Assembly: GCA_018830485.1 (NCBI GenBank)
Contig: JAHJRQ010000025.1
Location: 1 to 64,000 of the forward strand
From: Pseudomonadota bacterium
GTDB lineage: Bacteria > Desulfobacterota > Desulfobulbia > Desulfobulbales > Desulfurivibrionaceae
Direction: 5' to 3'
DNA length: 64,000 nucleotides
In this document: piece by piece, positions 29,560 through 49,328 of the stretch
Layout: each line of letters starts with the position of its first letter
How positions within the stretch are numbered: position 1 is the stretch's first letter
Notes under the pieces: model-generated
Databases searched by the model: none
The model's input: only the letters and a program-made list of their open reading frames with translations
What the model was told of the DNA's origin: nothing
Translations under genes and position numbers: made by a program

Positions 29560-30938
29560 ATCTATTTTTGATATCCGAAAACGCTTCTCTGCGGGAGGCC
29601 CTCGCGCAGATTGAAGCCAATCACCATGGAATTATTCTGACAACCGATTCGGCGGGTGGCGTGTCCGGCTTGGCCACGGATGGCGATATTCGCAGGAAGT
29701 TGCTTGATGGTGCGTCGTTGGACGACCCCATTGCCGCATGCGCCAACGCAGAGTTTGTGTGGGAGGCCCCGACCACCACGCGCGAGTTGTTGATGAAGAA
29801 ACTCGATCATCGTATTCGCGTGATTCCCTTACTTGATGCAGATTCCCGGCTTGTGGGCATTGTCAGCAGGGATCATTTGCCGATCCAGGCGGAGGAAGCG
29901 GTTTATGCCCGGGCCCGGTCGCCGGTTCGCATCAGCTTCGGCGGCGGCGGTTCGGATTTGACCCACTATTTTGCTGGGGAGGGGGGGGCGGTCATCAATA
30001 CCGCTATTTCCCTTTACAGCCATGCCACGTTGCGAATCCGAGACGATGAAAAAATAATCATCCGTTCGCTTGACCTCCGGGAGACACTCTGTGCCGATGA
30101 CCTCCCCTCTGCCTTGAACCAAGAAGGCCGCTTCGGTCTTATTCAAGCTCTGCTCAAGGCCATTCATCCGGATTTCGGATTTGAGCTGTATCTGCATTCC
30201 GACTTCCCAATGAATTCAGGCCTCGGCGGTTCCGCCGTTGTCTCGGCGGCAGTCCTTGGGTGCTTTAATCAGTTCCGGCGAGATCAGTGGAATCTGCATG
30301 AACTGGCCGAGCTCGCATTTCAGGCGGAGCGCCTGTATCTTGGGGTCGCGGGCGGTTGGCAGGATCAATACGCCACCGTATTCGGCGGGTTTAATTTTAT
30401 GGAATTTCGGATGGATCAAAATATTGTCCATCCTTTGCGCATTCATGTGGACACGCTGCTGGAACTGGAGGAAAGCCTGATTCTCTGCGATACCGGAACC
30501 ACGCACGACTCTGGGGACATCCATCAGGATCAGCGCCGCCAGATGGAGCAGCACGACGTCCGGCAGCAGGTGCAGACCAATGTCGAGCTCTCCTATCGGA
30601 TACGCAATCAATTGCTTCGCGGCAAACTGCTGCAATTTGGCCAATCGTTGCACGAGGCGTGGCAGTTCAAGCGGCAGTTCAGCAACAAGATTTCGAACGC
30701 CCGATTGGATCATATCTACGAAAACGCCCGTCGCCATGGCGCCATCGGCGGCAAGTTGCTCGGCGCAGGCGGGGGAGGGTTCTTCATCTTTTACGTCCCG
30801 CCATTCCGCAAACATGAATTGATGCTCCAGTTGGAAGAGGCAGGACTGCAGGTTCGCCCCTTCCGTTTCGAGCAGGAAGGTCTGCGGGCATGGACAGTGC
30901 GGGAGCGTAAACAGGGCATGGATTGTGAGAGAGCATGA
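29550..30938 (+). CDS. CBS-domain / GHMP kinase fusion (kinase HddA-like)
   Basis: N-term GVSGLATDGDIRRKLLDG..LVGIVSRDHLP (CBS); C-term ARSPVRISFGGGGSDLTHYF..MNSGLGGSAVVSAAVLG..KLLGAGGGGFFIF. Confidence 0.88.
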   Translation: MHLNLFLISENASLREALAQIEANHHGIILTTDSAGGVSGLATDGDIRRKLLDGASLDDPIAACANAEFVWEAPTTTRELLMKKLDHRIRVIPLLDADSRLVGIVSRDHLPIQAEEAVYARARSPVRISFGGGGSDLTHYFAGEGGAVINTAISLYSHATLRIRDDEKIIIRSLDLRETLCADDLPSALNQEGRFGLIQALLKAIHPDFGFELYLHSDFPMNSGLGGSAVVSAAVLGCFNQFRRDQWNLHELAELAFQAERLYLGVAGGWQDQYATVFGGFNFMEFRMDQNIVHPLRIHVDTLLELEESLILCDTGTTHDSGDIHQDQRRQMEQHDVRQQVQTNVELSYRIRNQLLRGKLLQFGQSLHEAWQFKRQFSNKISNARLDHIYENARRHGAIGGKLLGAGGGGFFIFYVPPFRKHELMLQLEEAGLQVRPFRFEQEGLRAWTVRERKQGMDCERA

Positions 30939-32827
30939 AAATTACAATCGGAAATTATGAAATCGGCGCTGGCCGAACCTACGTTATCGCAGAGATCGGC
31001 AATAACCATAACGGCAGCGTCCAACGGGCTCTTGAGATGATCGACCTCGCCTGCGGCATGGGGGCGGATTGTGTCAAGTTCCAGATGCGGCATCTGGACG
31101 AAGTCTATCGCCAGCGGACCTTGCGTAAGGACGGTGAAGACCTCGGGACGGAATACGTCCTCGATCTCTTAAGTCGTTTTGAGATTTCCATCGAGGAGCA
31201 CCGCAAGCTTATGGACTATTGCGGGCAAAAAGGAATCATGTACCTCTGCACCCCATGGGATGCACGCAGCGTCGACGTGCTGGAGAGCTTCGGTGTTCCT
31301 GCTTACAAGGTGGCGTCCGCCGACCTGACGAATCTTCCGCTGCTCGACAAGTTGGCCAAAACGGCAAAACCCCTGATTCTTTCTACGGGCATGAGCCATC
31401 CGGAAGAGGTGGCCGCCACCGTTTCCTTCCTGAATCAGCGGAAGGTTCAATTCGTTCTTCTGCACTGCAACAGTACGTATCCGGCGCCTCTGCACGACAT
31501 CAATCTCAAGTGGATGCACCAGTTGCGGAAGGTTCATCCACTGGTCGGATACTCCGGGCACGAACGCGGGATCAATGTTTCCCTTGCCGCGGTGGCGCTG
31601 GGTGCCTGCGTCATTGAGCGCCATTTTACGCTCGATCGGACCATGGAAGGTCCGGACCATGCAGCAAGCCTGACGCATCCCGAGTTCAAACGGTTGGTCG
31701 AGGGGATACGTGAAATTGAGGAAGCGCTGGGAGAAGGTGGGAAACGTCAGTTGTCCCAAGGCGAAATGATCAATCGCGAAAATCTCGGCAAAAGTTTGGT
31801 GGCTGCTATTCCCTTGTCCGCGGGGACCCAAATTGTCCCCGAGCACATCAAGGTCCGCAGCCCCGGACAAGGATTGTCGCCCCAGCATTACGATGCCCTG
31901 CTCGGCCGCACTCTGCAGCATGATATGGCTGAAGAGGATTTTTTTTATCCCTCCGATCTCAAGGATGAACGGTTAGAACCACGTCTATATAGTTTCTCGC
32001 GGCCTTGGGGCGTCCCGGTCCGCTATCACGATTTTAAGGAATATGCCGCTCGCATCCGGCCTGATGTTTGGGAGTTCCACCTCTCGTATTCGGACATGGA
32101 ACTTGAGCCAGGGGATTTTCTTGATGGGCCTTGCATGGCGGATTTCGTAGTGCATGCGCCGGAGTTGTTTGCCGGAAGTCGGCTGATGGATCTGGCGACT
32201 CCCGACGATGCGTCCCGGCGTGAATCACTTCTTGAGACTCAGCGGGTTATCGATATTACCCGGCGTCTGAAGCGCTTTTTTCCGAAGACCAAGAGGCCTC
32301 CCATCGTCGCCAACATCGGCGGATTCACAATGGATGAACCCCTGCCGGCATCAGCGATCCAGGGCTACTATGAACGCTTTGCGAAAAGTTTGCAAGAACT
32401 GGACATGGACGGCGTTGAACTTATCCCCCAAACCATGGCCCCTTTTCCATGGCATTTCGGCGGCCAGCGTTACCAGAATATCTTTGTCAAGATTGACGAG
32501 ATCGTCGAATGGTGCAGTAAGCTGAATCTGCGCATGTGTTTTGATGTGTCACACAGCCGATTGACCTGTAATCATATGGGTTTGGACTTTTATGATTTCA
32601 GCGCTAGAATTGCCCCATTCACCGCGCACCTTCATCTGGGAGATGCTAAAGGGCTCAACGGCGAAGGCCTCCAGGTCGGGGAAGGAGAAATCGACTTCGT
32701 ACGTCTTGGCAATATCCTGAAAAAAGGCTGCCCAGCCGCTTCATTCATCCCGGAAATCTGGCAAGGGCACAAGAATGGGGGGGAAGGGTTTTGGGTAGCA
32801 CTGGAGCGATTGGAGGGGAAGCTGTGA
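30935..32827 (+). CDS. NeuB-family synthase (with SAF) fused to xylose-isomerase-like TIM barrel
   Basis: N-term YVIAEIGNNHNGSVQRALEMIDLACGMGADCVKFQMRH; C-term LRMCFDVSHSRLTCNHMG...AHLHLGDAKGLNGEGLQVGEGEIDF. Confidence 0.88.
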   Translation: MKITIGNYEIGAGRTYVIAEIGNNHNGSVQRALEMIDLACGMGADCVKFQMRHLDEVYRQRTLRKDGEDLGTEYVLDLLSRFEISIEEHRKLMDYCGQKGIMYLCTPWDARSVDVLESFGVPAYKVASADLTNLPLLDKLAKTAKPLILSTGMSHPEEVAATVSFLNQRKVQFVLLHCNSTYPAPLHDINLKWMHQLRKVHPLVGYSGHERGINVSLAAVALGACVIERHFTLDRTMEGPDHAASLTHPEFKRLVEGIREIEEALGEGGKRQLSQGEMINRENLGKSLVAAIPLSAGTQIVPEHIKVRSPGQGLSPQHYDALLGRTLQHDMAEEDFFYPSDLKDERLEPRLYSFSRPWGVPVRYHDFKEYAARIRPDVWEFHLSYSDMELEPGDFLDGPCMADFVVHAPELFAGSRLMDLATPDDASRRESLLETQRVIDITRRLKRFFPKTKRPPIVANIGGFTMDEPLPASAIQGYYERFAKSLQELDMDGVELIPQTMAPFPWHFGGQRYQNIFVKIDEIVEWCSKLNLRMCFDVSHSRLTCNHMGLDFYDFSARIAPFTAHLHLGDAKGLNGEGLQVGEGEIDFVRLGNILKKGCPAASFIPEIWQGHKNGGEGFWVALERLEGKL

Positions 32828-33426
32828 CCAACCCGATAGCAACCGAAATATGTAATCAGATCGAAGCGTCGATTATTGCTAAACAAGCTGTTGTGCAGGA
32901 TTTGCAGATCATTGCCCAGGTCGAAGCCTTGACAAACCTGTGCCTGGCTTCTCTGCGCGGCGGCGGCAAGATCATCTTTGCCGGTAACGGCGGCAGTTTT
33001 GCCGATGCCCAGCACCTTTCCGCAGAATTTACTTCCCGTTTTCAGTTTGATCGCGCGCCATTGCCCTCCCTGGCACTGGGGACCAATAACTCCGCCATCA
33101 GTGCTATCGGCAACGACTACGGTTACGATAAGGTTTTTTCCAGGGAACTTGAGGCAATTGCCAAACCCGGCGACGTCTTTATCCCTATCACGACCAGCGG
33201 AAACAGCCCGAACATTCTGGCCGCCGTTGAAGTAGCGAATCGGCAGAATATCTCCACCGTTGCCTTGACAGGCATGAGTGGCGGGGAGCTGAAGCGCCAT
33301 TGCGAATGCATCTGCATACCATCGGCCGAAACTGCCCGTATTCAGGAGTGCCACATTATGCTGGGGCATATTCTCTGTGGCCTGGTGGAAACGGCACTAT
33401 TCCCAAGGTTAAGCAATCATGGGTAA
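32824..33426 (+). CDS. SIS-domain sedoheptulose-7-phosphate isomerase-like (GmhA family)
   Basis: GTG start overlapping upstream stop; GGGKIIFAGNGGSFADAQHLSAEFTSRF, IPITTSGNSPNIL. Confidence 0.85.
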   Translation: MTNPIATEICNQIEASIIAKQAVVQDLQIIAQVEALTNLCLASLRGGGKIIFAGNGGSFADAQHLSAEFTSRFQFDRAPLPSLALGTNNSAISAIGNDYGYDKVFSRELEAIAKPGDVFIPITTSGNSPNILAAVEVANRQNISTVALTGMSGGELKRHCECICIPSAETARIQECHIMLGHILCGLVETALFPRLSNHG

Positions 33427-34162
33427 GCGCGTTGTTCTTATCATCCAGGCTCGCATGGGCTCCAGTCGCCTGCCTGGAAAATCGATGATGGACCTGGCTG
33501 GGGCACCCTTAGTCGGCCGTATCCTTGAGCGCGTGAAGCGTTGCAGCCGTATCGACGATACGGTTTTGGCTATCCCGGATACGGAAAAGGATGCCGTGTT
33601 GAAATCGTTGGGCGATCAGTACGGGATTACAGTTTTTGCCGGTTCGGAAAATGACCTTGTTGAACGCTACTATCAGGCAGCGCTCCGGAGTAAAGCGGAC
33701 ATCGTCGGGCGCTTGCCGGCGGACAACGCTACCCCGGAGCCCTCCGAAATCGATCGCATTGTCGACCACCATCTATCGCTCGGGCGACCGGGGTTTTCGT
33801 CGAATTTGTCCGTTATTGACAATTCCGGATATCCGGACGGGATCGGCGCCGAGATGTTCGATTTTTCCTTGTTGGCAGAGGCAAGAGAGCGAAACCCCGA
33901 TTCGCGCCGGCGCGAACATGTGCACCTGAATTTCTACGACTACGGGATTGGTCAGCCGGTCGATGCCAAGTGGTGTCCCATCAGCACAGTTAAATGTCCT
34001 GCGGAATTCAGGCGTCCCGATCTTGTTCTCGATGTGAATACTCAGGCGCAATATGAGTTCATGCGGAAACTCTATGAGTATCTGTATCCGAGAAATCCGA
34101 AGTTTCACATTACAGATATTATTCGCTGGTATGACGAAGTGTATTGTCGCGCCAGCGGATGA
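33419..34162 (+). CDS. SpsF-like cytidylyltransferase
   Basis: LIIQARMGSSRLPGKSMMDLAGAPLVGRILERV; GRLPADNATPEPSEIDR. Confidence 0.85.
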   Translation: MGKRVVLIIQARMGSSRLPGKSMMDLAGAPLVGRILERVKRCSRIDDTVLAIPDTEKDAVLKSLGDQYGITVFAGSENDLVERYYQAALRSKADIVGRLPADNATPEPSEIDRIVDHHLSLGRPGFSSNLSVIDNSGYPDGIGAEMFDFSLLAEARERNPDSRRREHVHLNFYDYGIGQPVDAKWCPISTVKCPAEFRRPDLVLDVNTQAQYEFMRKLYEYLYPRNPKFHITDIIRWYDEVYCRASG

Positions 34163-34321
34163 CTGCGTGGATTTAAAATTTACTGCGTCATCCCACCCTG
34201 CGGTGTATGTATCTACTTTTAGTCATTTTTCCCGTTGTTCGACTTAGTTGGCTTACGAATACGGGGAAGGATACGAACGACAACCGGTTCATCGGAATTT
34301 TTTCTATTAAGGACATCTGAA

Positions 34322-35311
34322 ATGGCAACGCAATCCCGCTTGGTGTATTTCAACGGAAAACTCGTCCCGGAAACCGAGGCGAAGATTTCCATCTACGACT
34401 CGGCACTGATGTTTGGCGACATGGTGTTTGAGATGACCCGCTCGTTTAAAAAGAAGCAGTTTAAACTGCGGGAGCACATCGAGCGTTTGTACGCTGGACT
34501 CAAGGTACTCCGTATTCCGCTCCAGATGACCCCGGAAGAAATGGAGCGCGCGTGCTACGAGACCATTGAGGCGAACGACCATCTCTTTGGCGCAGACGAT
34601 GAACATCGTTTGATGATAGATGTTTCTCGCGGATTGCTTGGCATTTACCAGGGGATTGAAGGGTTGCACAAAGGGCCGAATGTCATCATTGCTGATTTTC
34701 CTCTGCGTTGGACGGTCGCCGGCATGGGGCAATTGTTTGAAACCGGCATCAATGCGGTTATCACTTCTCAGCGGGCGATTCCCGCAACATTGCTCGACCC
34801 CAAGATTAAGAACCGAAGTCGTATTCATTACCTGATGGCGAATATTGAAGCATCTCAGATTGATGGCGACAACAATTGGGCTCTTCTTTTGGATCCGGAT
34901 GGCTTTATTGCCGAGGGGACAGGAGATAATTTTTTCATCATCAAGAATGGTACGGTGATTACACCGGAGGGCCGAAATATCTTGCGTGGCGTATCTCGTG
35001 CATACGTGATAGAGGAACTCTGTCCACAGTTGGGCATTCCCGTTGTCGAAAAGAACATTGAAGCCTATGACGTTTACACCGCCGATGAAGCGTTCATGAC
35101 CGGGACACCGTTTTGCATGCTGCCTGTAACTTCACTCAACGGGAACCTCATCGGCACGGGAAAAGTCGGCGAAGTATTTGATAAAATTATTCGGCGGTGG
35201 GGGGATAATACCGGCGTCGATATCGTTCGCCAAATTCAAACGTGGGATGCTGAACGCGGGGCCTCTGCAACCGGAAGCGCCCCAACGCCTTACCGGTTCA
35301 AAACGAAGTGA
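34322..35311 (+). CDS. class IV aminotransferase (IlvE / D-amino-acid transaminase fold)
   Basis: LVYFNGKLVPETEAKISIYDSALMFGDMVFEMTRSF; LDPDGFIAEGTGDNFFIIKNGTVITP. Confidence 0.9.
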   Translation: MATQSRLVYFNGKLVPETEAKISIYDSALMFGDMVFEMTRSFKKKQFKLREHIERLYAGLKVLRIPLQMTPEEMERACYETIEANDHLFGADDEHRLMIDVSRGLLGIYQGIEGLHKGPNVIIADFPLRWTVAGMGQLFETGINAVITSQRAIPATLLDPKIKNRSRIHYLMANIEASQIDGDNNWALLLDPDGFIAEGTGDNFFIIKNGTVITPEGRNILRGVSRAYVIEELCPQLGIPVVEKNIEAYDVYTADEAFMTGTPFCMLPVTSLNGNLIGTGKVGEVFDKIIRRWGDNTGVDIVRQIQTWDAERGASATGSAPTPYRFKTK

Positions 35312-36159
35312 GGCAGCAAATCGGTTTCATGCAGGGCCGGCTTTCGCCTATGGTGGATGGGCGCATCCAGGCGTTTCCGTGGCAGTTTTGGCAAGACGAG
35401 TTTTCCCTTGCGGAACAACTTGGCTTTGGTGCAATGGAATGGACGCTTGATCAGGAGCGGCTTTACGAAAATCCCCTCCTGACGGCGGCCGGGCAGAGCA
35501 AGATCCAGCAGCTTTGCAAACGGCACGGGATCGATATCCCCTCCCTGACCGGGGATTGCTTTATGCAGGCGCCTTTCTGGAAGGCTCCCGCGGAGGAGCG
35601 CGCAGCCTTGGAGCGGGATTTTATTGCTGTTGCCAAAGCGTGCCGCGCTGGTGGAATTTCGCTTATCGTGGTGCCCTTGGTCGATAACGGGCGGTTGGAC
35701 AACCGGGATCAGGAAGAGCAACTCATCCGATTTCTGCAGGCGCACGCGGAATTTTTCTCGTCAAACCAATTGCAGGTGGTTTTTGAATCCGACTTCAACC
35801 CGAGAGAGCTTGCCAGATTTATCGACCGCCTCGATCCGGCCCTTTTCGGCATCAACTACGATATAGGCAATAGCGCCGCCTTGGGTTATATTCCCGCAGA
35901 AGAATTTGCGGCCTATGGCAACCGTATTCTGAATGTGCATGTGAAGGACAGGGTGCTTGGCGGCACCACCGTCCCGCTGGGAACAGGCAATGCAGATTTT
36001 GAAACCGTATTCAAGGAGTTCGGTCGAATGAATTACCAGGGAAACTTCATTCTGCAGACGGCTCGCGCCACGAACCACGATCATGGGGTGCCGCTTGCCC
36101 GATACCGTGACATGACTGCCGGTTGGATGCGGCAATTTGGTTTGCTGCCTCGTGGATGA
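35308..36159 (+). CDS. sugar phosphate isomerase/epimerase (xylose-isomerase-like TIM barrel)
   Basis: IGFMQGRLSPMVDGRIQAFPWQFWQDEFSLAEQLGFGAMEWT; FGINYDIGNSAALGY..ILNVHVKDR. Confidence 0.85.
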   Translation: MRQQIGFMQGRLSPMVDGRIQAFPWQFWQDEFSLAEQLGFGAMEWTLDQERLYENPLLTAAGQSKIQQLCKRHGIDIPSLTGDCFMQAPFWKAPAEERAALERDFIAVAKACRAGGISLIVVPLVDNGRLDNRDQEEQLIRFLQAHAEFFSSNQLQVVFESDFNPRELARFIDRLDPALFGINYDIGNSAALGYIPAEEFAAYGNRILNVHVKDRVLGGTTVPLGTGNADFETVFKEFGRMNYQGNFILQTARATNHDHGVPLARYRDMTAGWMRQFGLLPRG

Positions 36160-36208
36160 GATCACATGTTCACCTCAACGCTGTTCTTTAATCATCGGCT
36201 TTTGATCC

Positions 36209-36964
36209 ATGGAACTTGATCTTTCCGGCAAGGTTGCGCTAATCACCGGCTCTTCGCGAGGAATCGGACGAGCGATTGCCGAAGCGCTGCATGCAGAGGG
36301 GTGCAGGGTTGCCCTGAATGGGCGGAACGCGAAGGATGTGGAGATCGCCTCTGCATCGTGTTCCGGCTCGCTCGCCATCGCAGGTGATGTGACCGATCCC
36401 GATGATGCCCGGCGGGTAGTGACGGAAGTGGTTGGCAAATTCGGTGGACTGGATATTCTTGTTTGCAATGTCGGCAGCGGTCGAGCAGCCCTGCCCGGAA
36501 ATGAAACTCCGGAAGAGTGGAAGCGGGTTTTTTCCCTCAACCTGTGGAGCACAACGAATACCGTGGAAGCGGCCCGTGGGGCGCTGGAAGCAAGTAAGGG
36601 CGCAATCGTTTGTGTGTCATCCATCTGTGGGCTGGAAGTTGTTCCGGGCGCTCCGGTGGTTTATTCCGCCGCCAAGGCGGCCTTGCACGCTTATGTGAAA
36701 GGTATCGCCCGCCCGCTTGGCAAGCTCGGAGTGAGAATCAACGCAGTCGCACCGGGAAACATTCTTTTTGAGGGTTCGGTGTGGTCACGCAAGCTGGCTG
36801 AAGATGCCGACTCCGTTCATGCAATGCTCGAACGGGATGTTGCTCTTTCTCGTTTGGGAACGCCGGGTGAAATTGCGGATCTTGTAGCCTATTTGGCATC
36901 ACCCCGTGCTGGCTTCGCAACGGGATGTATCTGGACACTTGACGGCGGCCAGGTTCGGTCATAG
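36209..36964 (+). CDS. SDR family oxidoreductase
   Basis: GKVALITGSSRGIGRAIAEAL, VYSAAKAALHAYVK. Confidence 0.88.
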   Translation: MELDLSGKVALITGSSRGIGRAIAEALHAEGCRVALNGRNAKDVEIASASCSGSLAIAGDVTDPDDARRVVTEVVGKFGGLDILVCNVGSGRAALPGNETPEEWKRVFSLNLWSTTNTVEAARGALEASKGAIVCVSSICGLEVVPGAPVVYSAAKAALHAYVKGIARPLGKLGVRINAVAPGNILFEGSVWSRKLAEDADSVHAMLERDVALSRLGTPGEIADLVAYLASPRAGFATGCIWTLDGGQVRS

Positions 36965-36996
36965 GCAATACAAAAAATAAGGAAACCGCGTAGGCA

Positions 36997-37830
36997 ATGG
37001 CATCGAATAAATTTGACATGAGCGGGAAGACCGCACTTATTACTGGTGCGGCGGGATTACTGGGGGTTGAACATGCAGTCGCACTCCTGGAATGCGGTGC
37101 GGTCGTAGTTTTAACCGATGTCTCGGAAGCTGCCTTGAGCGTAGCCGGGGAAGCATTGTCGCGAGAGTATCCTGCAGAAATGATTCTCACCGAGGTGATG
37201 GATGTGTCTCGGTTCGAGGCCATAAAGGGGGTTGCCCAAACATTTGAGTCTGCTGGCCGCCGCATTGATATTCTGGTTAATAACGCAGCCATTGATCCCA
37301 AAGTCAAAGGCGATCAAGGGGTTCTTGAAACCTCGCGCCTTGAGAATTTTCCTCTGGAACAATGGGACTTGCAGCTTGCCGTCGGCCTGACCGGAGCCTT
37401 TTTGTGCAGTCAGGTGTTTGGGGCCGCCATGGCGAAGGATGGCAAGGGAGGGGTTATTCTGAACATCGCCTCCGATTTGTCGGTTTTTTCGCCGGATCAA
37501 AGGCTGTATCGTAAAGAGGGCTTGGCAGACGAAATGCAACCCGTCAAGCCGGTGACCTATTCGGTAATCAAGGCTGGCCTTGTTGGGCTGACTCGTTACC
37601 TGGCCACCTATTGGGCCGACAAGAATGTGCGGGCCAACGCGCTATCGCCGGGGGGAGTATTCAATGGGCAAGGTGCGGAATTTGTGCAGCGCCTCAGCTC
37701 ATTGATTCCGCTCGGCCGGATGGCGCAGCGAGACGAATACCGGGCGGCGGTGCAATTTCTTTGCTCCGAGGCATCGGCCTATATGAATGGGCAAAATATC
37801 GTTATGGATGGCGGGCGCTCGGTGTGGTAA
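36997..37830 (+). CDS. SDR family oxidoreductase
   Basis: GKTALITGAAGLLGVEHAVALLE, YSVIKAGLVGLTRYLATYW, NGQNIVMDGGRSVW. Confidence 0.88.
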   Translation: MASNKFDMSGKTALITGAAGLLGVEHAVALLECGAVVVLTDVSEAALSVAGEALSREYPAEMILTEVMDVSRFEAIKGVAQTFESAGRRIDILVNNAAIDPKVKGDQGVLETSRLENFPLEQWDLQLAVGLTGAFLCSQVFGAAMAKDGKGGVILNIASDLSVFSPDQRLYRKEGLADEMQPVKPVTYSVIKAGLVGLTRYLATYWADKNVRANALSPGGVFNGQGAEFVQRLSSLIPLGRMAQRDEYRAAVQFLCSEASAYMNGQNIVMDGGRSVW

Positions 37831-39629
37831 AGCGGTTTCTGGTCACCACTGCGCTGGAAGAAACCTGGCGCGACGATGTGCCGGTTCTTTTTTTGGGGGA
37901 ATGGTGCCGCCGGTATGATCGCAGAGAAAAATGGCAAAGCCTTGATGCCGAAGTGGCGCCCTATCACTGGGATGATCGGCAAAAATTCGATCAAGACTAC
38001 CGGTATCTGCAAAAACTCTATGAGGAATTGCTGGCCGAGCTCGGAGCGCAACTCAATGCGTTGCATGGCGTCGACCATTCGGTGCGTTACTGGCGAATCT
38101 TGCTCGGGCCATGGCTGGGATATTTTATCCAGATGCTGTTCGATCGTTGGGTAATGGTGCGGCAGGCTATTCGCGACTACGATATCGTCGGAGCAAGGGT
38201 CATGTCGGACAACGGGCGGCACGTTGTTCCAAATGACATGGAGAGTTTTCATTCGCTTTTTATCTCTGATGCATGGAACGAGGCCATTTGCGGGGAATTG
38301 CTGGCCTGGATGGGTGTTCCTTGCGAGTTGGCCGCCGGCGGAACAGATATACCGTTGTCGATGCCGCAAAAGAGTGGGGACGGGATTGGGTTTAAAAGGA
38401 AGTTGAAAAACACCCTGGCATGGGCGGCGGATGCCCTGTCCGGCCTGGTTTGTGCCGAGAGGGAATTTTTTTTTATTGCATCGTATCTTCCCCCCAAACA
38501 GCGGCTTTTGTTGGAATTGAAACTGGGGCAGTTGCCCAAGCGATGGCGTCTGGTCCGGGTTCCGCCATCGCTTGCGGACCATACGTTACGAGAAGAGCAG
38601 GTAATTGTCCCTGACGATGTTCACGACTTTCCGTCCGTTGCCAGGGCCATGATTCAAAGGCATATCCCGACCGCCTATCGGGAAGGATATAGAAGTCTGG
38701 TGGCGATAACGCGAAAACTGTCGTGGCCAAAGTTCCCCAAGGCCATCTTCACCAGCAACTCATATTCGGCCGATGATGTTTTCAAAGCCTGGGCGGCGGA
38801 AAAGGTGGAAACCGGGGTGCCCCTGGTGATAGGTCAGCACGGCGGCAACTTTGGTATGGCACGGTGGAACTTTGCCGAGGAACACCAGATCGCCATTGCT
38901 GACCGGTTTTTGACCTGGGGATGGCAACAGGCCGATCAGCAGAAGCTTATTCCCGTCGGTAATGTGAAGGGCTTCGGCAGCAAGGCGGCGTTTGACAAGC
39001 AAGGTATTGCCCTGCTGGTTGAGATGACCATGCCGCGAACCAGCTACCACCTGTACAGTGTGCCGGTCGCGCATCAATGGCTCGATTATTTTGAAGATCA
39101 ATGCCGGTTTGTGCAGGCGCTGCCACCGGAATTGCGTGAACAATTGCTGGTGAGGCTCTATTCGCAGGATTATGGTTGGTGCCAAAAGCAGCGGTGGCAG
39201 GCGCGGTTTCCTCTGATTCGGCTGGACGACGGCAGCCAGCCCATGACGGCCCTGCTCAACAGATCACGCCTCTATGTCAGCACCTACAACGCCACCACCT
39301 ATCTGGAGTCCTTGGCTCTCAATATCCCGACCATCATGTTCTGGAATCCGCTCCATTGGGAGCTGCGCGATTCCGCTATCCCCGCTTTGGAAAAACTGAA
39401 ATCCGTAGGGATTTTTCACGACACCCCGGAAAGTGCTGCCCGGCATATGGCCCAAATTTGGGACAACGTCGATGCGTGGTGGCAGAGCGAATCGATACAA
39501 CACGTGCGCCGGGAATTTTGCGCGTGTTACGCGCATTTTCCGGAACGACCGCTTGAGGTGATGGAAAAGATATTCCGTGAGGTTGCGGCAACAGGCGAAT
39601 CGGCACAAGCCACCCGAACTGCGGCATAA
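37824..39629 (+). CDS. LIC12162-family putative transferase
   Basis: FLVTTALEETWRDDVPVLFLGEWCRRYDRREKW matches the family N-terminus as I know it; IGQHGGNFGMARW, STYNATTYLESLALNIPTIMFWN. Confidence 0.78.
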   Translation: MVKRFLVTTALEETWRDDVPVLFLGEWCRRYDRREKWQSLDAEVAPYHWDDRQKFDQDYRYLQKLYEELLAELGAQLNALHGVDHSVRYWRILLGPWLGYFIQMLFDRWVMVRQAIRDYDIVGARVMSDNGRHVVPNDMESFHSLFISDAWNEAICGELLAWMGVPCELAAGGTDIPLSMPQKSGDGIGFKRKLKNTLAWAADALSGLVCAEREFFFIASYLPPKQRLLLELKLGQLPKRWRLVRVPPSLADHTLREEQVIVPDDVHDFPSVARAMIQRHIPTAYREGYRSLVAITRKLSWPKFPKAIFTSNSYSADDVFKAWAAEKVETGVPLVIGQHGGNFGMARWNFAEEHQIAIADRFLTWGWQQADQQKLIPVGNVKGFGSKAAFDKQGIALLVEMTMPRTSYHLYSVPVAHQWLDYFEDQCRFVQALPPELREQLLVRLYSQDYGWCQKQRWQARFPLIRLDDGSQPMTALLNRSRLYVSTYNATTYLESLALNIPTIMFWNPLHWELRDSAIPALEKLKSVGIFHDTPESAARHMAQIWDNVDAWWQSESIQHVRREFCACYAHFPERPLEVMEKIFREVAATGESAQATRTAA

Positions 39630-39694: not shown

Positions 39695-40465
39695 ATGAAG
39701 GCAATCGCTATTCTTCCTGCGCGAATGGGGGCATCGCGCTTTCCGGGCAAGCCGTTGCATCCGATTATGGGCATACCCATGATCGGCCACTGCTACTTCC
39801 GCACCCGGATGGTGGCCGGTCTGGCAGGGACGTACGTCGCTACATGCGATCAGCAGATCGCCGATTATGTGAGTTCGATTGGCGGCAAATCAGTGATGAC
39901 TTCATCAAGCCACAACCGGGCGACCGATCGTACGGCGGAAGCCATGGCGAAAATCGAGAGCGAAACAGGAGAACGGATGGACATAATCGTCATGGTCCAA
40001 GGCGATGAACCGCTGATCCTGCCTGAATCCATCGGCGAGACATTGCGTCATTTTAACGATCCCGGCGTTGAGATTGTTAATATTATGTCGCGATTGCGTA
40101 CCCGCGAGCAGTTTGAGGACAAGAACAACGTAAAGGTTGTGGTTAATCAGAACAAGGATGCTCTCTATTTTTCCCGCGAGCCGATCCCTTCGCCATGGAA
40201 AGGCATCGATCAATTGCCGATGTATATGCAGGTCGGGGTCATTGCTTTCCGTCGTGAAACCTTGATCCGTTTCAATAAGATGCCTGAAACAATACTGGAA
40301 AAAATCGAATCGGTGGACATGAATCGCGTACTTGAAACCGGTGGCCGTATCCGTATGGTGCTCACTGACGCCGTTACCATCGGGGTTGATACCCCGGATG
40401 AAGCGGATGAAGCCGGCCGTCTGATGCAGGGCGATCCCTTGCTTGGGGAATATCCGTGTTCATGA
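39695..40465 (+). CDS. KdsB-like CMP-ulosonate cytidylyltransferase
   Basis: AIAILPARMGASRFPGKPLHPIMGIPMIGHCYFR; VQGDEPLI; KNNVKVVVNQNKDALYFSREPIPSPW; RBS AAGGAG. Confidence 0.88.
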   Translation: MKAIAILPARMGASRFPGKPLHPIMGIPMIGHCYFRTRMVAGLAGTYVATCDQQIADYVSSIGGKSVMTSSSHNRATDRTAEAMAKIESETGERMDIIVMVQGDEPLILPESIGETLRHFNDPGVEIVNIMSRLRTREQFEDKNNVKVVVNQNKDALYFSREPIPSPWKGIDQLPMYMQVGVIAFRRETLIRFNKMPETILEKIESVDMNRVLETGGRIRMVLTDAVTIGVDTPDEADEAGRLMQGDPLLGEYPCS

Positions 40466-41469
40466 AAGAAAGCGATATCCGGCCGGAGGCATTGTTCAAT
40501 CGGTATCTGGAGTTGAGCGCGAACGATGCCGAACGGTGTTTTTCCGGGATTTCTCGTCATTCTATCCCATGTGTCGGTTGCGGTGGAAACCAGCTCAAGC
40601 CAGAGTTTGAAAAAAACGGTTTCGGGTATGCGTCATGCTCTGATTGCGGCAGTCTGTTTCAGGCGCCCAGGCCACCCATCGAGTCTTTTGAGGCGTTTTA
40701 TCGCGATTCCGTTTCAGGCCGTTACTGGGCCGAAGTTTTTTTCCCGGCGGTTGCAGAAGCCCGGCGGGAGCGGATCTTTAAGCCGCGGGCCGAACGATTG
40801 TCCAATCTGTGCGCTCAGAAAGGGTTAGTGGTTGAGAGGATCATTGATGTCGGTGCCGGCTATGGCATTTTACTCGACGAATGGCGCCGGTTGCATCCTC
40901 AGGCTCACCTCCTGGCCATTGAACCTTCGGCAATGCTTGCGCGTGCCTGTCGCGCCAAGGGGTTGGAGGTTGTTGAAAATATAGCGGAAAACATTACCGG
41001 CTATCAGGGTGTTGCCGATTTCGTCGTTTGCTTTGAAGTGCTCGAGCATGTCTACGACCCGCTGGCTTTTGTGCGGACTTTGTCCAGTTTGGCCCGTCCA
41101 GGTGGATACGTCTTTGTGAGCACTCTCGGTGTCGATGGTTTCGACATCCAGTGCCTCTGGGAAAAATCGAACAGCATTTTTCCGCCGCATCATATTAATT
41201 TTCTGTCCGTGGCAGGCTTTCAACGTCTATTCGAGAGGGCGGGATTGGAGAATATTGATATAACGACTCCTGGCGTACTTGATGTGGACATCGTGCGCAA
41301 TGCCGTCAAGAAAAACCCTGAACTTTTTAGCAACCAGCGTTATTTGGCGAAGATTCTCGCAGATGATGCTCTCGCGACCGCGTTCCAGATATTTCTCGCC
41401 GAAAACCGCTTAAGTTCCCATATGTGGGTTTTGGGTAAAAAACCCAGACAAGAGGTTGTGCATGACTAA
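40462..41469 (+). CDS. class I SAM methyltransferase with N-terminal zinc-binding motif
   Basis: CVGCGGNQ..CSDCGSLFQAPRP; IIDVGAGYGILLDEW; CFEVLEHVYDP. Confidence 0.85.
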   Translation: MKESDIRPEALFNRYLELSANDAERCFSGISRHSIPCVGCGGNQLKPEFEKNGFGYASCSDCGSLFQAPRPPIESFEAFYRDSVSGRYWAEVFFPAVAEARRERIFKPRAERLSNLCAQKGLVVERIIDVGAGYGILLDEWRRLHPQAHLLAIEPSAMLARACRAKGLEVVENIAENITGYQGVADFVVCFEVLEHVYDPLAFVRTLSSLARPGGYVFVSTLGVDGFDIQCLWEKSNSIFPPHHINFLSVAGFQRLFERAGLENIDITTPGVLDVDIVRNAVKKNPELFSNQRYLAKILADDALATAFQIFLAENRLSSHMWVLGKKPRQEVVHD

Positions 41470-42511
41470 ATTACGAGTAGGAATTGCCGGGTATGGTGTC
41501 GTTGGGAAACGCCGCAGGGCATGTGTCGACCGTATTCCGCAGTTGGAGATGGTGGCTGTGTGTGACCGCATGTTCGACAGTCCGGGGAGGTTTCCCGACG
41601 GAGTCCGTTATTATTCGGACTACAAAAGTTTGTTGAATGAAAAACTCGACATTCTGATTGTCTGCCTCACCAATGAAATCGCCCCGGAAGTCACTATAGC
41701 TGGCCTTGACCATGGCTTGCATGTTTTTTGCGAAAAGCCGCCGGGCAGGAATGTGGAAGACATTGCCCTGGTTATCCGCACCGAGGCGCAGCATCCGTCG
41801 CTGAAGTTGATGTACGGCTTCAATCATCGCTATCATGAGTCTGTTCAGGATGCACTCGGCTTGATCCGGTCGGACAAGATGGGGCGCATCATCAATATGC
41901 GAGGGGTTTACGGAAAATCCAAACTGGTGACCTTTAATCAGCCTGATTGGCGAACAAAACGGGAAATCGCAGGAGGGGGGGTGCTGCTTGATCAGGGCAT
42001 ACACATGGTTGACCTGATGCGCTTGTTTGCCGGGGAATTCACCGAAGTGCACAGTTTTGTCTCAAATAACCACTGGGGCTATGACGTTGAAGACAATGCC
42101 TATGCGCTGATGCGAACCGCAGAAGGGGTTGTGGGCATGTTGAATTCTTCGGCAACGCAGTGGCGGCATCGTTTCCACCTCGACATCAATCTTGAAAAGG
42201 GGAGTATCATCCTCGGCGGCATTCTTTCGGGTTCGAAAAGTTATGGGGCCGAAACGCTCGCCGTTGTAACGGCTGACCCTGATACTGACAACGGGGATCC
42301 CAAGGAGCAGATCACCCGCTATAATCGAGACCCTTCCTGGGACGAAGAAATTGCCTCGTTCGTGGATTCGATTGTCGGCGATAAGCCGATCATGAGCGGC
42401 TCGTCGCATGATGCCCTGCAAACCATGAAACTTGTGTATAAAATCTACCACGCCGATCCGGCGTGGCGCGCAGCCTATCAAATCCCAAACCCAGAGGAAT
42501 GCAACGCATGA
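41462..42511 (+). CDS. Gfo/Idh/MocA family oxidoreductase
   Basis: LRVGIAGYGVVGKRRR; GLHVFCEKPPGRNVEDIA; GGGVLLDQGIHMVDLMRLFAGEF. Confidence 0.88.
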   Translation: MTKLRVGIAGYGVVGKRRRACVDRIPQLEMVAVCDRMFDSPGRFPDGVRYYSDYKSLLNEKLDILIVCLTNEIAPEVTIAGLDHGLHVFCEKPPGRNVEDIALVIRTEAQHPSLKLMYGFNHRYHESVQDALGLIRSDKMGRIINMRGVYGKSKLVTFNQPDWRTKREIAGGGVLLDQGIHMVDLMRLFAGEFTEVHSFVSNNHWGYDVEDNAYALMRTAEGVVGMLNSSATQWRHRFHLDINLEKGSIILGGILSGSKSYGAETLAVVTADPDTDNGDPKEQITRYNRDPSWDEEIASFVDSIVGDKPIMSGSSHDALQTMKLVYKIYHADPAWRAAYQIPNPEECNA

Positions 42512-43107
42512 ATAATATTGATCGATTTTTTTCCCAGGATCCGGCTACGTTCGCGAAGTCCTATTTCAATTATTTGGCTGAGGTTCTGAAGGGGATTGAT
42601 GTTCAGGAAATTGGGCGTTTTGTCGCTACACTGCTGGACGCTCGAGAGCGGGGAGCTACGGTGTTTTTCGTTGGAAACGGCGGGAGCGCTGCCACGGCCA
42701 GTCACTTCGCCAACGATTTGGCCATCGGGACCAATTCCTACGAGAAACCCTTTCGCGTGCTCAGTCTGACCGACAACCAGGCGATCATCACGGCGATTGG
42801 AAATGATTTCGGCTATCATGATATTTTTGTGCGGCAACTGCGTATTCTGGGCAAGGCAGGTGATGTCGTCGTCGCTATTTCTGCCTCGGGGAATTCGCCT
42901 AATCTCGTCAGTGCCTTTGAGTATGCCCAAAGTGCTGGAATCAAAACGGTGGCCATCACGGCTTTCGATGGCGGGAAAATGAAAACGATGGCGGATGAGG
43001 GAATTCATGTCCCGACCGGGCCCAAGGAATACGGGCCGGCTGAGGATGCGCATATGGTGCTGGATCATTTGGTTGGAGCGTACTTGATGCGTTTGGTTAA
43101 CAATTAA
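42508..43107 (+). CDS. SIS-domain phosphosugar isomerase (GmhA-like)
   Basis: TVFFVGNGGSAATASHFANDL; VVVAISASGNSPNLVSAFEYA. Confidence 0.85.
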   Translation: MNNIDRFFSQDPATFAKSYFNYLAEVLKGIDVQEIGRFVATLLDARERGATVFFVGNGGSAATASHFANDLAIGTNSYEKPFRVLSLTDNQAIITAIGNDFGYHDIFVRQLRILGKAGDVVVAISASGNSPNLVSAFEYAQSAGIKTVAITAFDGGKMKTMADEGIHVPTGPKEYGPAEDAHMVLDHLVGAYLMRLVNN

Positions 43108-43874
43108 TGGTGCGTCAATCTGTAGACCTTCTTGAGCTGGCAAAAAGTACCGCCCTTGACGCCGCCCGGATTGTATCGTCAACGAAAAATGAAGTGATTG
43201 GTGCGGTTGAATCCGTGATTTTGTCGGGTCGAGAAACCAAGATCGCCGGGGATCGGATTGTGGAGGCAGAAATACTTAAAAAACTCACCTCCACCGGGAT
43301 CTCAATATTAACGGAGGAATCGGGGTATATTGACCAGAAAAACAAAGATGGGCTGCTATGGATCGTGGATCCACTTGATGGAAGTGTAAATTTCAGTCGA
43401 GGGACCGGACCTTGTGCCGTATCGATAGCTCTTTGGAAAGATATGGCCCCCTATTTCGGAGTTATCTATTCTTTGCACGATAAATGCTTGGCTTGGGGGG
43501 GCGCAGAGTTCGGCGCCTGGCAAGATTCGGATCCGATCAGCGTTAACAATAAGACACGGAAAGGTGAGGCGATATTGTGCACAGGTGTTCCGGCGCGTTT
43601 TGATTTGACAAATGGAGCAATGGTTAAGAAGTTTACTGAAACTATTTTCTCATTTGCCAAGGTGCGAATGATCGGTTCTGCTGCCGCTTCCTTGCTTCTC
43701 GTTGCAAAAGGAGCGGCAGATGCGTATTGTGAGGAAGACATTATGCTTTGGGATGTCGCTGCCGGATTGGCCCTTGTGGAGGGGGCCGGCGGTAAGACGT
43801 ATTGTGATGTCAGAGAAGGAACGTACCAATATTCGATAAAGGCCGCAAATCGTATCTTGATTGATCAGTTTTGA
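43107..43874 (+). CDS. inositol monophosphatase family protein
   Basis: ILTEESGYIDQ..GLLWIVDPLDGSVNFSRG; DIMLWDVAAGLALVEGAGG. Confidence 0.85.
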   Translation: MVRQSVDLLELAKSTALDAARIVSSTKNEVIGAVESVILSGRETKIAGDRIVEAEILKKLTSTGISILTEESGYIDQKNKDGLLWIVDPLDGSVNFSRGTGPCAVSIALWKDMAPYFGVIYSLHDKCLAWGGAEFGAWQDSDPISVNNKTRKGEAILCTGVPARFDLTNGAMVKKFTETIFSFAKVRMIGSAAASLLLVAKGAADAYCEEDIMLWDVAAGLALVEGAGGKTYCDVREGTYQYSIKAANRILIDQF

Positions 43875-43931
43875 AGCATGGTGCCGATGCCGCTTGCAAT
43901 GCAAGCAATAATTTTTCGATGAGATAAACTA

Positions 43932-44864
43932 ATGAACACAACCAGCAAGGTAGCCGTTTGTTCCCGCTCTTTTTCGCAGAATTCCACCCTGCGTGCCGAG
44001 CTGTTGACGCGTTATCAGCATGTCACATTCAATGATGCCGGCCGCCAGTTAACAGGCGAGGATCTTGTCGAGTTTTTGCGGGGACACGACAAGGCGATTG
44101 TGGCCCTTGAGACCATTGATGCCTCTCTTCTCTCGCGATTGCCTGAACTGAAGGTTGTCAGCAAGTTCGGAGTGGGGCTGGATATGCTCGACCTTGGGGC
44201 AATGAAAAAAAACGGGGTCAGGCTGGGATGGACAGCAGGGGTCAATAAAAGAGCTGTTTCAGAACTTGTTGTGGCTTTCTCCATTCTCATGCTCCGTAAG
44301 GTTCCAGCGGCAAACCTGGAGGTTCGGGAAGGAGTGTGGCGTCAGCACAAGGGGAGCCTGTTGTCCGGAAAGACTGTGGGGATAATTGGTTGCGGCCCTG
44401 TCGGCAGAGATGTCGCCCTCCTTATGCAGGCATTCGGCTGTGAAGTCTTGGTGAACGATGTTGCTGATACTTCCGAATTTTGCCTGCAACACCAAGCCGT
44501 TGGCGTGAGTCTGGCCGAACTTCTGGGAAGAGCCGACGTTGTAACGATTCATACGCCACTGAATAATTCGACCAGAAATTTGTTACACGCTGAAAATCTT
44601 GCTTTGATGAAACCCGGGGCTATCCTTGTCAACCTTGCCCGGGGTGGCCTGGTAGACGAGCAGGCCTTGAAAAGCATGCTCAAGGAGGGGAGGCTTGCTG
44701 CCGCAGCGTTTGATGTGTTTGCCCAGGAGCCTCCCACGGACCAGGAATTGATCAGACTGCCAAATTTTTTGGCTACTCCCCATATAGGCGGCAGTGCGCA
44801 CGAGGCTATTTTGGCCATGGGGCGTGCAGCGATAGAGGGATTGGACCGACATAGTGCTCCCTGA
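43932..44864 (+). CDS. D-isomer-specific 2-hydroxyacid dehydrogenase
   Basis: GKTVGIIGCGPVGRDVALLMQAFG; LMKPGAILVNLARGGLVDEQAL. Confidence 0.88.
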   Translation: MNTTSKVAVCSRSFSQNSTLRAELLTRYQHVTFNDAGRQLTGEDLVEFLRGHDKAIVALETIDASLLSRLPELKVVSKFGVGLDMLDLGAMKKNGVRLGWTAGVNKRAVSELVVAFSILMLRKVPAANLEVREGVWRQHKGSLLSGKTVGIIGCGPVGRDVALLMQAFGCEVLVNDVADTSEFCLQHQAVGVSLAELLGRADVVTIHTPLNNSTRNLLHAENLALMKPGAILVNLARGGLVDEQALKSMLKEGRLAAAAFDVFAQEPPTDQELIRLPNFLATPHIGGSAHEAILAMGRAAIEGLDRHSAP

Positions 44865-44908
44865 TTTCCCTCACTTTTTTTGCATTATCAAATGTAGGCT
44901 TGCCGACC

Positions 44909-45670
44909 ATGAATAGAATCGATGCCATCCGACAAATTCGGGAACGTTTGTGCGCAGGCGGTCATTCCATCGGGAGCTGGATGCAGATTCCGCATGCTTC
45001 GGTGGCCGAGATCATGGGGCAGGCCGGTTACGATTGGGTTGCCGTCGATCTTGAACACGGCGCCATTGCGGCGCATCAACTCCCGGACCTGTTTCGTGCT
45101 TTGGAGCTTGGCGGAACTTTACCGCTTGCGAGGCTGGCCCAAGGGCATTCCAAGGATTGCAAACAGGCCTTGGATGCCGGCGCCGGCGGGGTGATCGTGC
45201 CGATGATCGAAAGTGCCGAGCAATTGATAGCGGTGCGGGATTCTTGCCGCTGGCCGCCCGCGGGGATTCGCGGGGTGGGGTTTTCACGCGCCAACCTGTT
45301 CGGGAAGCACTTCGATGTCTACCGTGAGGAAGCTCAAGCCCCGCTGCTGGTTGCGATGATCGAAAATTTTCGTGCGGTGGAAGACCTGGAGCACATACTT
45401 GAAGTTGATGGGCTGGACGCACTATTGATCGGCCCGTACGACCTTTCCGCCTCGATGGGGCTGACGGCAAGGTTCGATCATCCGGATTTCAAGGCGATGA
45501 TGAATCGTATCCGCGAGCTGGCCGCCCAAAAGAACATTGCCTCAGGGGTGCATGTGGTCCAGCCGGCACGTGAGGAGCTGAAACAGCGGCTGGATGAAGG
45601 CTATCGCTTCCTGGCCTATTCGGTAGACGCGGTCATGCTGCGGAGCGTAGCCGAGGGTTGCTTGACTTGA
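44909..45670 (+). CDS. HpcH/HpaI family pyruvate-dependent class II aldolase
   Basis: SIGSWMQIPHASVAEIMGQAGYDWVAVDLEHG; GGVIVPMIESAEQL; VAMIENFRAVEDLEHIL. Confidence 0.9.
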   Translation: MNRIDAIRQIRERLCAGGHSIGSWMQIPHASVAEIMGQAGYDWVAVDLEHGAIAAHQLPDLFRALELGGTLPLARLAQGHSKDCKQALDAGAGGVIVPMIESAEQLIAVRDSCRWPPAGIRGVGFSRANLFGKHFDVYREEAQAPLLVAMIENFRAVEDLEHILEVDGLDALLIGPYDLSASMGLTARFDHPDFKAMMNRIRELAAQKNIASGVHVVQPAREELKQRLDEGYRFLAYSVDAVMLRSVAEGCLT

Positions 45671-47372: not shown

Positions 47373-49328
47373 ATGACGTCGACCCAGGTTGAACGCAATT
47401 CTCGGAAGAGTGCCGACGCCATAGTTCCGTTGCTTGTTTGGGATACGGAAGGGGCGCCTCCAACTACTGGCTATAAAACGGTATGTTGGCAAAGCGTTGG
47501 CTCTGGTGCGCCTGACGTCGTATCAATACCAAAGCTGGTGGAGACGAATGCGGACGCGCTTAAAAAACGCTATCTGGCGTGGGTTTACGATCTGGGTGAG
47601 GCGCGTATCCGGGGGCACCGGCTGATCGACCATCTGGAATTGCGGCCCGGGTTCAGCTATTGGTGGATGACGTTGTTTGCGGAGAAATGCAATTATGTGA
47701 AATCTCCGCACATTGACCACGCCATTCGCCTGATGGCCTTTGAGGACTGGATACAGGGCAAAGTTTTCGGCCATATGGTTGTAGTCAGCTCCAATGGGCA
47801 TCTTGCCGAGTGTCTCCGGTCTTGGTGCGTTGCTACGGGAGTTTCGTTTGAATGGCAACCCCTGCCGGCAACGGCGGAGCAACAATCTTGGCTGAAAAAG
47901 TTTCATCAAGCCCTGCCGTATTCGTTGCAGGCCATTACATGGTTGGTCCTCTATTTGGTTCGCCGTTGGCCGCTCAAGGGCGCAGGTCTTTCCGGATGGC
48001 GCCAATCAAGAGGGCGGACGACCTTTGTTTCCTATCTGTTTAACCTGGTTCCCTCTGCTGCAAGCGAGGGCCGGTTTGCAAGCTATTATTGGGCGCATCT
48101 GCCCGAAAATCTCCAGCGTGATGGTTGTAAAACCAATTGGCTTCATTTATATGTCGAGCATGCGCTGCTTCCTAATGCCAGAAAAGCGGCTAAGGCCATC
48201 TGCCAATTCAACAACACAGCTCAAGATGGCCAAAAGCACGTTGTCTTGGATACGTTTCTGAGTTGGGCGGTTGTTTTTAAGACGTTGCGCGATTGGTTCC
48301 GTCTCCGGCGGCGAGCAAGGGGGCTTCAGGAAGTGCTTTGTTTGCCACATGGTGTTAAGATTCCCCTCTGGCCCTTGTTTCGGGAAGACTGGCGTCGTTC
48401 TCTGGCCGGGAAGGACGCCTTGAGTAACCTGCTGCATTGTAACTTGTTTGAGTCGGCGTTCAAGTCCCTGGCTCTCCAACGAGTCGGTGTCTATCTGCAA
48501 GAGAATCAAGGGTGGGAATTTGCATGCATTCATGCATGGAAGGCAGCGGGGCATGGCCGATTAATCGGCACACCGCATTCGACTGTGCGTTACTGGGATT
48601 TGCGCTATTTTTTCGATCCACGGAGCTACACGCGCTCGGGCCTTAATAATCTGCCTTTGCCGGATCAGGTGGCGCTCAATGGGGCGGCGGCTTTCGATGC
48701 CTACCGTGCGGGCGACTATCCGTTAGAGGATGTGGCCGAAGTTGAAGCCTTGCGCTATCTCCATCTTTTTGAAGCAAAAAAGGGGGGGGAGTCGGTTTTG
48801 CCGGAATCTAATGGTCATTTGCGGGTTTTGGTTCTGGGGGATTACGATTCAAGCTATACAAAAAAACAACTGCATCTGTTTGAAAAATCAGCGCAGTTTC
48901 TGCCTTCGGGTGCCATTATTATTCTCAAGCCCCATCCGGCTTGTCCGGTACAACTTTCTGATTTTCCTGGTCTGAAGATGCAAATGACCGCAAATCCCGT
49001 ACCGGAACTGCTGGATGATTGCGATGTTGTCTACACAAGCAGTAACACTGCAGCGGCGGTCGATGCCTATTGTGCTGGTGTTCCGGTTGTGTCGCTGCTT
49101 GATCCGAGTCGTCTCAACCTGAGTCCCTTGCGGGGCAGGGAAGGGGTATTTTTTGTCAGCACCCCGGAAGAGCTGACAAGGGCACTGATTTCCGCTGCTG
49201 CCGGTCCTCGGGGCATATTCTCTGCGGACGATTTTTTTCGGCTTGATTCGACAATGCCGCGATGGAAAAATTTGATAGGGGTGGGCGCTGTCGATTTAAA
49301 ACAAGGGACCGGCCTTTCACCGGCGTAA
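47373..49328 (+). CDS. surface carbohydrate biosynthesis protein (LIC13510/TIGR04326-like)
   Basis: TPHSTVRYWDLRYFFDPRSY; ILKPHPACPV; VVYTSSNTAAAVDAYCAGVPVV. Confidence 0.65.
   Translation: MTSTQVERNSRKSADAIVPLLVWDTEGAPPTTGYKTVCWQSVGSGAPDVVSIPKLVETNADALKKRYLAWVYDLGEARIRGHRLIDHLELRPGFSYWWMTLFAEKCNYVKSPHIDHAIRLMAFEDWIQGKVFGHMVVVSSNGHLAECLRSWCVATGVSFEWQPLPATAEQQSWLKKFHQALPYSLQAITWLVLYLVRRWPLKGAGLSGWRQSRGRTTFVSYLFNLVPSAASEGRFASYYWAHLPENLQRDGCKTNWLHLYVEHALLPNARKAAKAICQFNNTAQDGQKHVVLDTFLSWAVVFKTLRDWFRLRRRARGLQEVLCLPHGVKIPLWPLFREDWRRSLAGKDALSNLLHCNLFESAFKSLALQRVGVYLQENQGWEFACIHAWKAAGHGRLIGTPHSTVRYWDLRYFFDPRSYTRSGLNNLPLPDQVALNGAAAFDAYRAGDYPLEDVAEVEALRYLHLFEAKKGGESVLPESNGHLRVLVLGDYDSSYTKKQLHLFEKSAQFLPSGAIIILKPHPACPVQLSDFPGLKMQMTANPVPELLDDCDVVYTSSNTAAAVDAYCAGVPVVSLLDPSRLNLSPLRGREGVFFVSTPEELTRALISAAAGPRGIFSADDFFRLDSTMPRWKNLIGVGAVDLKQGTGLSPA

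Follow-up and report, generated by a model that had tools for sequence, protein, structure and literature searches.

An HpaI-family aldolase and a KdsB-like CMP-transferase share a recurrent gene cassette, a probable route to a non-Kdo CMP-activated ulosonic acid

Gene organisation of the cassette

The DNA analysed here (the window) comprises the first 64,000 nucleotides of contig JAHJRQ010000025.1, from the assembly GCA_018830485.1 of a Pseudomonadota bacterium (Desulfurivibrionaceae in the GTDB lineage); the genome is 2.89 Mb in 26 contigs. Within a large surface-polysaccharide cluster lies a cassette of genes, from 39,695 to 45,670, that encodes a KdsB-like CMP-transferase together with an HpaI-family aldolase and that probably directs the synthesis of a CMP-activated ulosonic acid other than Kdo. 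Its content was read from a listing of open reading frames (ORFs) and from family scans of the window:

39695..40465, + strand: KdsB-like CMP-transferase, cassette subfamily (PF02348, 153 bits)
40459..41469 (start 40456 or 40459), + strand: Zn-ribbon S-adenosylmethionine methyltransferase (MT1), accessory (PF13489, 87 bits)
41462..42511, + strand: Gfo/Idh/MocA oxidoreductase, in the oxidoreductase slot of type II cassettes (PF22725/PF01408)
42508..43107, + strand: SIS-domain sugar-phosphate isomerase, GmhA-like, distinct subfamily (PF13580)
43107..43874, + strand: inositol-monophosphatase-family phosphatase (IMPase), in the phosphate-removal slot of type II cassettes (PF00459, 130 bits)
43932..44864, + strand: D-2-hydroxyacid dehydrogenase (2HADH), phosphoglycerate-dehydrogenase-like (PF02826, 186 bits)
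44909..45670, + strand: HpaI/HpcH-family class II aldolase, cassette subfamily (PF03328, 112 bits)

An earlier note on this DNA had named six of these families (KdsB-like, Gfo/Idh, SIS, IMPase, 2HADH and HpaI), and all six were confirmed, on one strand and with intact ORFs, but it had overlooked the Zn-ribbon methyltransferase between KdsB and Gfo/Idh. Overlaps of 1–10 bases join the genes from KdsB through the methyltransferase, Gfo/Idh and SIS to IMPase, and gaps of about 57 and 44 bases separate IMPase from 2HADH and 2HADH from HpaI. Promoter and terminator patterns across the operon did not exceed their frequency in shuffled sequence. The full text of open-licence papers was searched and no account of the gene set was found.

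Co-occurrence of the cassette genes across genomes

One genome per species was scanned with an alignment of five HpaI relatives, and the 80 best loci were annotated by best BLAST hit to genes of the window and its relatives, using our own thresholds. A CMP-transferase accompanied by 2HADH or an oxidoreductase was found in 61 of the 80 neighbourhoods, spread over at least 14 phyla, in a sample that is biased because the loci were picked by similarity to the window HpaI. Phyla represented among the 61 include Pseudomonadota, Bacteroidota, Bdellovibrionota, Cyanobacteriota, Nitrospirota, Chlorobiota, Acidobacteriota and Chloroflexota. Fifty of the 56 well-flanked loci carry a CMP-transferase (KdsB-type, NeuA-type or both), 46 carry 2HADH, and 46 carry one of two oxidoreductases, never both.

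A test with less bias drew on 394 genomes from the phylum of the host, in which HpaI matches form two score groups. Of 28 strong homologues (270 bits or more), 27 have a PF02348 gene no further than about 6 kb away on their contig, and the sole exception is on an 8.4-kb contig. The weaker matches number about 66 in the genomes searched, and at least six are near a PF02348 gene, all of them in one family (f65). A cut of about 295 bits or more for cassette-type KdsB selected 24 of the 394 genomes; high-scoring HpaI occurs in 23 of these 24 and in 5 of the 370 others (Fisher p ~2e-31 by our own tally, a value that overstates the independence of the cases because relatedness among the genomes is uncorrected). 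Dozens of genomes unrelated to one another carry the same families together, far beyond what chance would give. The earlier note had named a lack of co-occurrence elsewhere as grounds for giving up its proposal; the genes in fact travel together across phyla.

A minimal five-gene set of the type I architecture described below is carried on an Acuticoccus plasmid, where the genes are annotated as aldolase, acylneuraminate cytidylyltransferase, phosphoglycerate dehydrogenase, HAD hydrolase and NAD(P)-dependent oxidoreductase. Apart from this set, the plasmid search matched chiefly HpaI of the catabolic kind (about 35% identity), and a search of phages with HpaI gave no match.

Two cassette architectures

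The cassettes fall into two types. Type I combines an extended SDR and a HAD phosphatase, to which a protein of the 6-phosphogluconolactonase family or the PF04199 cyclase family is often added. Type II, the type found in the window, carries Gfo/Idh, often SIS, together with IMPase or, in its place, an AroB-related phospholyase (TIGR04425). The phosphatases pair with the oxidoreductases, HAD with SDR and IMPase with Gfo/Idh. The cassette is wider than the gene set of the earlier note: IMPase, Gfo/Idh and SIS make up one of two solutions that can replace each other, and in many relatives SDR and HAD take their place, with or without the lactonase-like gene. Gfo/Idh relatives 50–80% identical to that of the window lie beside KdsB at nine loci (L048, L054, L055, L064, L070, L071, L078, L085 and L094), and MT1 is found near many cassettes of both types.

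The SIS protein scores 116 bits against a GmhA equivalog cut-off of 209. Its catalytic Glu is replaced by Asp, the catalytic His is kept, and a two-residue insertion (EYGP) is present in all cassette copies. The IMPase motifs (EE...DPLDG...WD) are intact, and the catalytic motifs are kept in 10 cassette copies.

Several loci depart from these arrangements. At L054, L055, L091, L094 and L163 the AroB-related phospholyase takes the place of IMPase, usually with an SDR, and a family scan identified it as TIGR04425 in L055, L091 and L094. At L162 a cassette-type KdsB is accompanied by only 2HADH and a cyclase-family protein, and in one genome (G233, L163-L164) contig C11 carries a Gfo-type cassette and contig C14 carries HpaI. 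A third arrangement was seen in family f65 (L160, 6065-12657; L161, 6591-12014), where a KdsB-like protein with another motif set (HRSGSDR, KMCFIVPFR, E-NEYLR) is beside a weaker HpaI, a HAD protein, an LdpA-like protein and a 4-hydroxy-2-oxovalerate-aldolase-like protein.

The KdsB-like CMP-transferase

The cassette KdsB falls below the kdsB equivalog cut-off (TIGR00466, 141.5 versus 155.2 bits) and scores above the cut-off of the broad subfamily model NF009905 (285 versus 255 bits). In a tree of 87 sequences, a single branch (support 99/96) parts 57 cassette rows from 30 canonical rows, with the window KdsB on the cassette side. The window protein keeps P8, R10, R15 and K19, which are CTP or catalytic residues of KdsB (PMC3149649), as well as the CTP/Mg motifs QGDEP and VDT. 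These two motifs are common to cassette and canonical KdsBs, and their two Asp residues are present in all 58 cassette rows.

Elsewhere the two kinds differ. The window KdsB has R75, A76, Q179, I183, D208 and M209 where canonical enzymes have S/T, G, H, Y, E and Q. The last four are strongly conserved in canonical KdsBs (H 28/31, Y 31/31, E 31/31, Q 31/31), and their replacements are nearly as constant in cassette KdsBs (Q 57/58, I 57/58, D 57/58, M 54/58); the canonical S/T-G pair has mostly become R-A or R-C. Kdo binding has been assigned to the C-terminal domain of KdsB (PMC3149649), and this domain holds four of the six switched positions. Conservation and domain assignment together suggest that the switched residues contact the sugar. 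The residues on the sugar side that are conserved in Kdo-activating KdsB are replaced in the cassette enzyme, whose substrate is probably not Kdo.

The HpaI aldolase and 2-hydroxyacid dehydrogenase

His50, Arg75, Glu152 and Asp178 of HpaI are intact, and are invariant in the alignment of five HpaI relatives. The protein scores well below the equivalog cut-offs of the catabolic enzymes HpaI (TIGR02311, 143 versus 369 bits), GarL (TIGR03239, 133 versus 407) and RhmA (NF007521, 125 versus 441). Together with the proximity of nearly all strong homologues to a cytidylyltransferase gene, these scores tie the subfamily to CMP-transferases and not to catabolism.

The window HpaI groups with aldolases of type I (SDR-type) cassettes, and the window KdsB groups with type II (Gfo-type) copies; the HpaI tree was built quickly and its deep branches are weakly supported, long branches meet in it, and one row (L002, branch length 10) is unreliable. 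Because the two proteins fall in different type groups, the aldolase seems exchangeable between types, a hint from sequence grouping that both types may make the same or a similar bond.

In 2HADH, Arg237, Glu266 and His284 are intact in the window and conserved in at least 93% of 64 copies. In two genomes of one genus (L010, 3395-4945; L166, 4404-5954) a thiamine-diphosphate enzyme is encoded upstream of HpaI, together with 2HADH, NeuB-like and NeuC-like genes. At L078 (6472-9300), a 942-aa FAD/Fe-S protein resembling the D-2-hydroxyglutarate dehydrogenase YdiJ is encoded two genes upstream of HpaI.

PEP-dependent synthases and the Kdo genes of the genome

In the usual teaching, CMP-activated ulosonic acids come from phosphoenolpyruvate (PEP)-dependent synthases. 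The earlier note reported no such synthase, which holds for the cassette but not for the surrounding polysaccharide cluster, where two are found upstream:

30935-32827: NeuB fusion, about 7-9 kb upstream of the cassette
20935-21981: PseI, about 18 kb upstream of the cassette

Both are accompanied by their own SpsF/Pse genes. The cassette itself carries no KdsA; the genome encodes one on another contig (C20, 392 bits), and a second KdsB, on contig C2, has canonical motifs and 40% identity to the cassette copy. Because the genome has this separate KdsA and canonical KdsB, the cassette is not the lipid A Kdo pathway. KdsA was found in none of the 80 HpaI neighbourhoods, and NeuB or PseI was absent within 9.5 kb from 37 of 43 full cassettes and present in six.

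An upstream block of the window (28816-37830) contains an SpsF-like CMP-transferase, a class IV aminotransferase, a TIM-barrel protein, two SDRs and a LIC12162 transferase, and adjoins Hdd/GmhA-like heptose genes and a NeuB fusion. It recurs at L078 (SpsF 82% and aminotransferase 85% identical), with parts in L020 and L056, and may be a second CMP-sugar cassette.

Neighbouring glycosyltransferase-like proteins

Two further proteins that recur near cassettes flank the operon in the window:

37827..39629, + strand: LIC12162-family transferase, GT-B-like glycosyltransferase, candidate user of the activated sugar (TIGR04331, 526 bits, cut-off 225)
47373..49328, + strand: LIC13510-family surface carbohydrate protein, GT-B-like, recurrent neighbour (TIGR04326, 526 bits, cut-off 250)

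The second of these follows HpaI after a methyltransferase and an acyltransferase. In the PDB, the AlphaFold2 (AF2) model of LIC12162 (pLDDT 78) matched GT-B-type structures and that of LIC13510 (pLDDT 84) matched GT-B or UDP-GlcNAc 2-epimerase-type structures, all at low TM-score. As the models match GT-B enzymes in general, both proteins are probably glycosyltransferases; the PDB matches were generic GT-B only and gave no link to Kdo transferases.

Discussion

The reading we favour, and hold to be probable, is that the operon yields a non-Kdo CMP-activated ulosonic acid for the surface polysaccharide, and that an HpaI-type, metal-dependent aldolase replaces the PEP-dependent synthase. SIS and Gfo/Idh (elsewhere SDR with the lactonase-like gene) would prepare an aldehyde sugar or sugar phosphate, to which HpaI would add the enolate of a 2-keto acid, most likely pyruvate, giving a 2-keto-3-deoxy acid. 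Phosphate would be removed by IMPase (elsewhere HAD) before or after the aldol step, and the modified KdsB would activate the acid with CTP. The methyltransferase and the neighbouring GT-B enzyme may then use or decorate the activated sugar, and 2HADH might act by providing the keto-acid donor or by fixing a stereocentre. We infer the order of steps, the donor, the acceptor, the point of phosphate removal, the product and the use of the HpaI product by KdsB. Dha, a 3-deoxy-pentulosonate, a 3-deoxy-heptulosonate and Ko were considered as products and not adopted, as the analysis selects none of them. The pyruvate-aldol route to a CMP-ulosonate put forward in the earlier note is partly supported, by the co-occurrence of the genes, the non-catabolic HpaI, the altered KdsB, the absence of KdsA from all 80 neighbourhoods and the rarity of NeuB and PseI around the full cassettes.

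The layout runs parallel to the Kdo pathway (KdsD-KdsA-KdsC-KdsB), with an SIS-type isomerase, a C-C bond step, a phosphatase and a KdsB-family CMP-transferase. It differs in having HpaI for the PEP-dependent KdsA, IMPase or HAD for KdsC and a GmhA-like SIS for KdsD, in the replaced sugar-side residues of KdsB, and in the additional 2HADH and Gfo/Idh or SDR. The nonulosonic acid pathways (NeuB/NeuA, PseI/PseF and Leg) likewise provide a CMP-activated ulosonic acid for surface glycans, and some cassettes have a NeuA/PseF-like transferase, but the cassette core lacks both a PEP-dependent NeuB-type synthase and the aminotransferase/acetyltransferase set. With the class II pyruvate aldolases HpaI, GarL and RhmA the cassette aldolase shares its fold family and catalytic residues, but it belongs to a distinct, lower-scoring subfamily tied to CMP-transferases instead of sugar-acid catabolism. 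The TIGR04425 protein, an AroB-related putative sugar phosphate phospholyase whose function is itself predicted, alternates with IMPase inside several Gfo-type cassettes and is absent from that of the window.

A different donor is conceivable, if unlikely: 2HADH and the phosphatase would make hydroxypyruvate from 3-phosphoglycerate, and HpaI would add it to give a 3-hydroxy ulosonic acid (Ko-like) for activation by KdsB. This scheme employs 2HADH and the phosphatase in both architectures, the closest relatives of 2HADH are phosphoglycerate dehydrogenases, and one solved HpaI-family relative is named hydroxyketoacid aldolase, but the SIS, Gfo/SDR and lactonase-like genes are left unexplained.

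Another reading, which we think rather improbable, is that the genome has two CMP-Kdo synthetases, the KdsB-like enzyme being of the capsule type as KpsU is in E. coli next to KdsB, with the other genes making a different sugar of the same polymer. A second copy of KdsB devoted to capsules has precedents (PMC3149649), and the cassette protein does pass NF009905. KpsU, however, retains all canonical sugar-side residues, whereas cassette KdsBs have replaced them; KdsB and HpaI are linked across phyla, and NeuA-type transferases stand in for KdsB in some cassettes. Of similarly low probability is that HpaI and 2HADH belong to a branch of their own, leading for instance to an acidic non-sugar glycan substituent, while KdsB activates the acid from an upstream NeuB-type synthase. 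The NeuB fusion and PseI do lie upstream in the same cluster, and 2HADH makes or reduces 2-hydroxy acids, but most full cassettes have neither synthase nearby, KdsA is missing from all 80 loci, and minimal sets consist of just a CMP-transferase, HpaI, 2HADH, an oxidoreductase and a phosphatase. That the aldolase runs in the cleavage direction to salvage a sugar acid, the grouping being merely regulatory, is very improbable: the characterised family members GarL, RhmA and HpaI are catabolic, but the cassette subfamily differs from the catabolic models and sits in polysaccharide clusters beside CMP-transferases, and no uptake or kinase genes were noticed in the cassettes.

Several points weigh against the proposed aldolase route to a CMP-activated ulosonic acid. 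No CMP-transferase is nearby at 11 of the 80 HpaI loci, several of them on short contigs, and some cassette-type KdsBs (L162, L163) lack an adjacent HpaI. HpaI aldolases can work in either direction, and many relatives serve in catabolism. A simple aldol route offers 2HADH no convincing step, and the alternation of the phospholyase with IMPase suggests chemistry outside the scheme.

A broader claim, to which we give about even weight for and against, is that the cassettes embody a third logic for CMP-activated ulosonic acids, widespread and undescribed, in which an HpaI-family ketoacid aldolase replaces PEP-dependent synthases and feeds a subfamily of KdsB (or NeuA) whose sugar pocket is different. 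This logic would exist in at least 14 phyla as two architectures that can replace each other, and its product would be new as a CMP-sugar. If true, the aldolase-based logic would explain many enzymes of surface-glycan clusters that now carry the label KdsB, NeuA or phosphoglycerate dehydrogenase, and CMP-Kdo would be mis-predicted wherever cassette-type KdsBs are annotated. The residue signature Q/I/D/M versus H/Y/E/Q separates the two kinds of KdsB in annotation, and the defined set of five to seven enzymes would offer a reconstitutable way to a new sugar.

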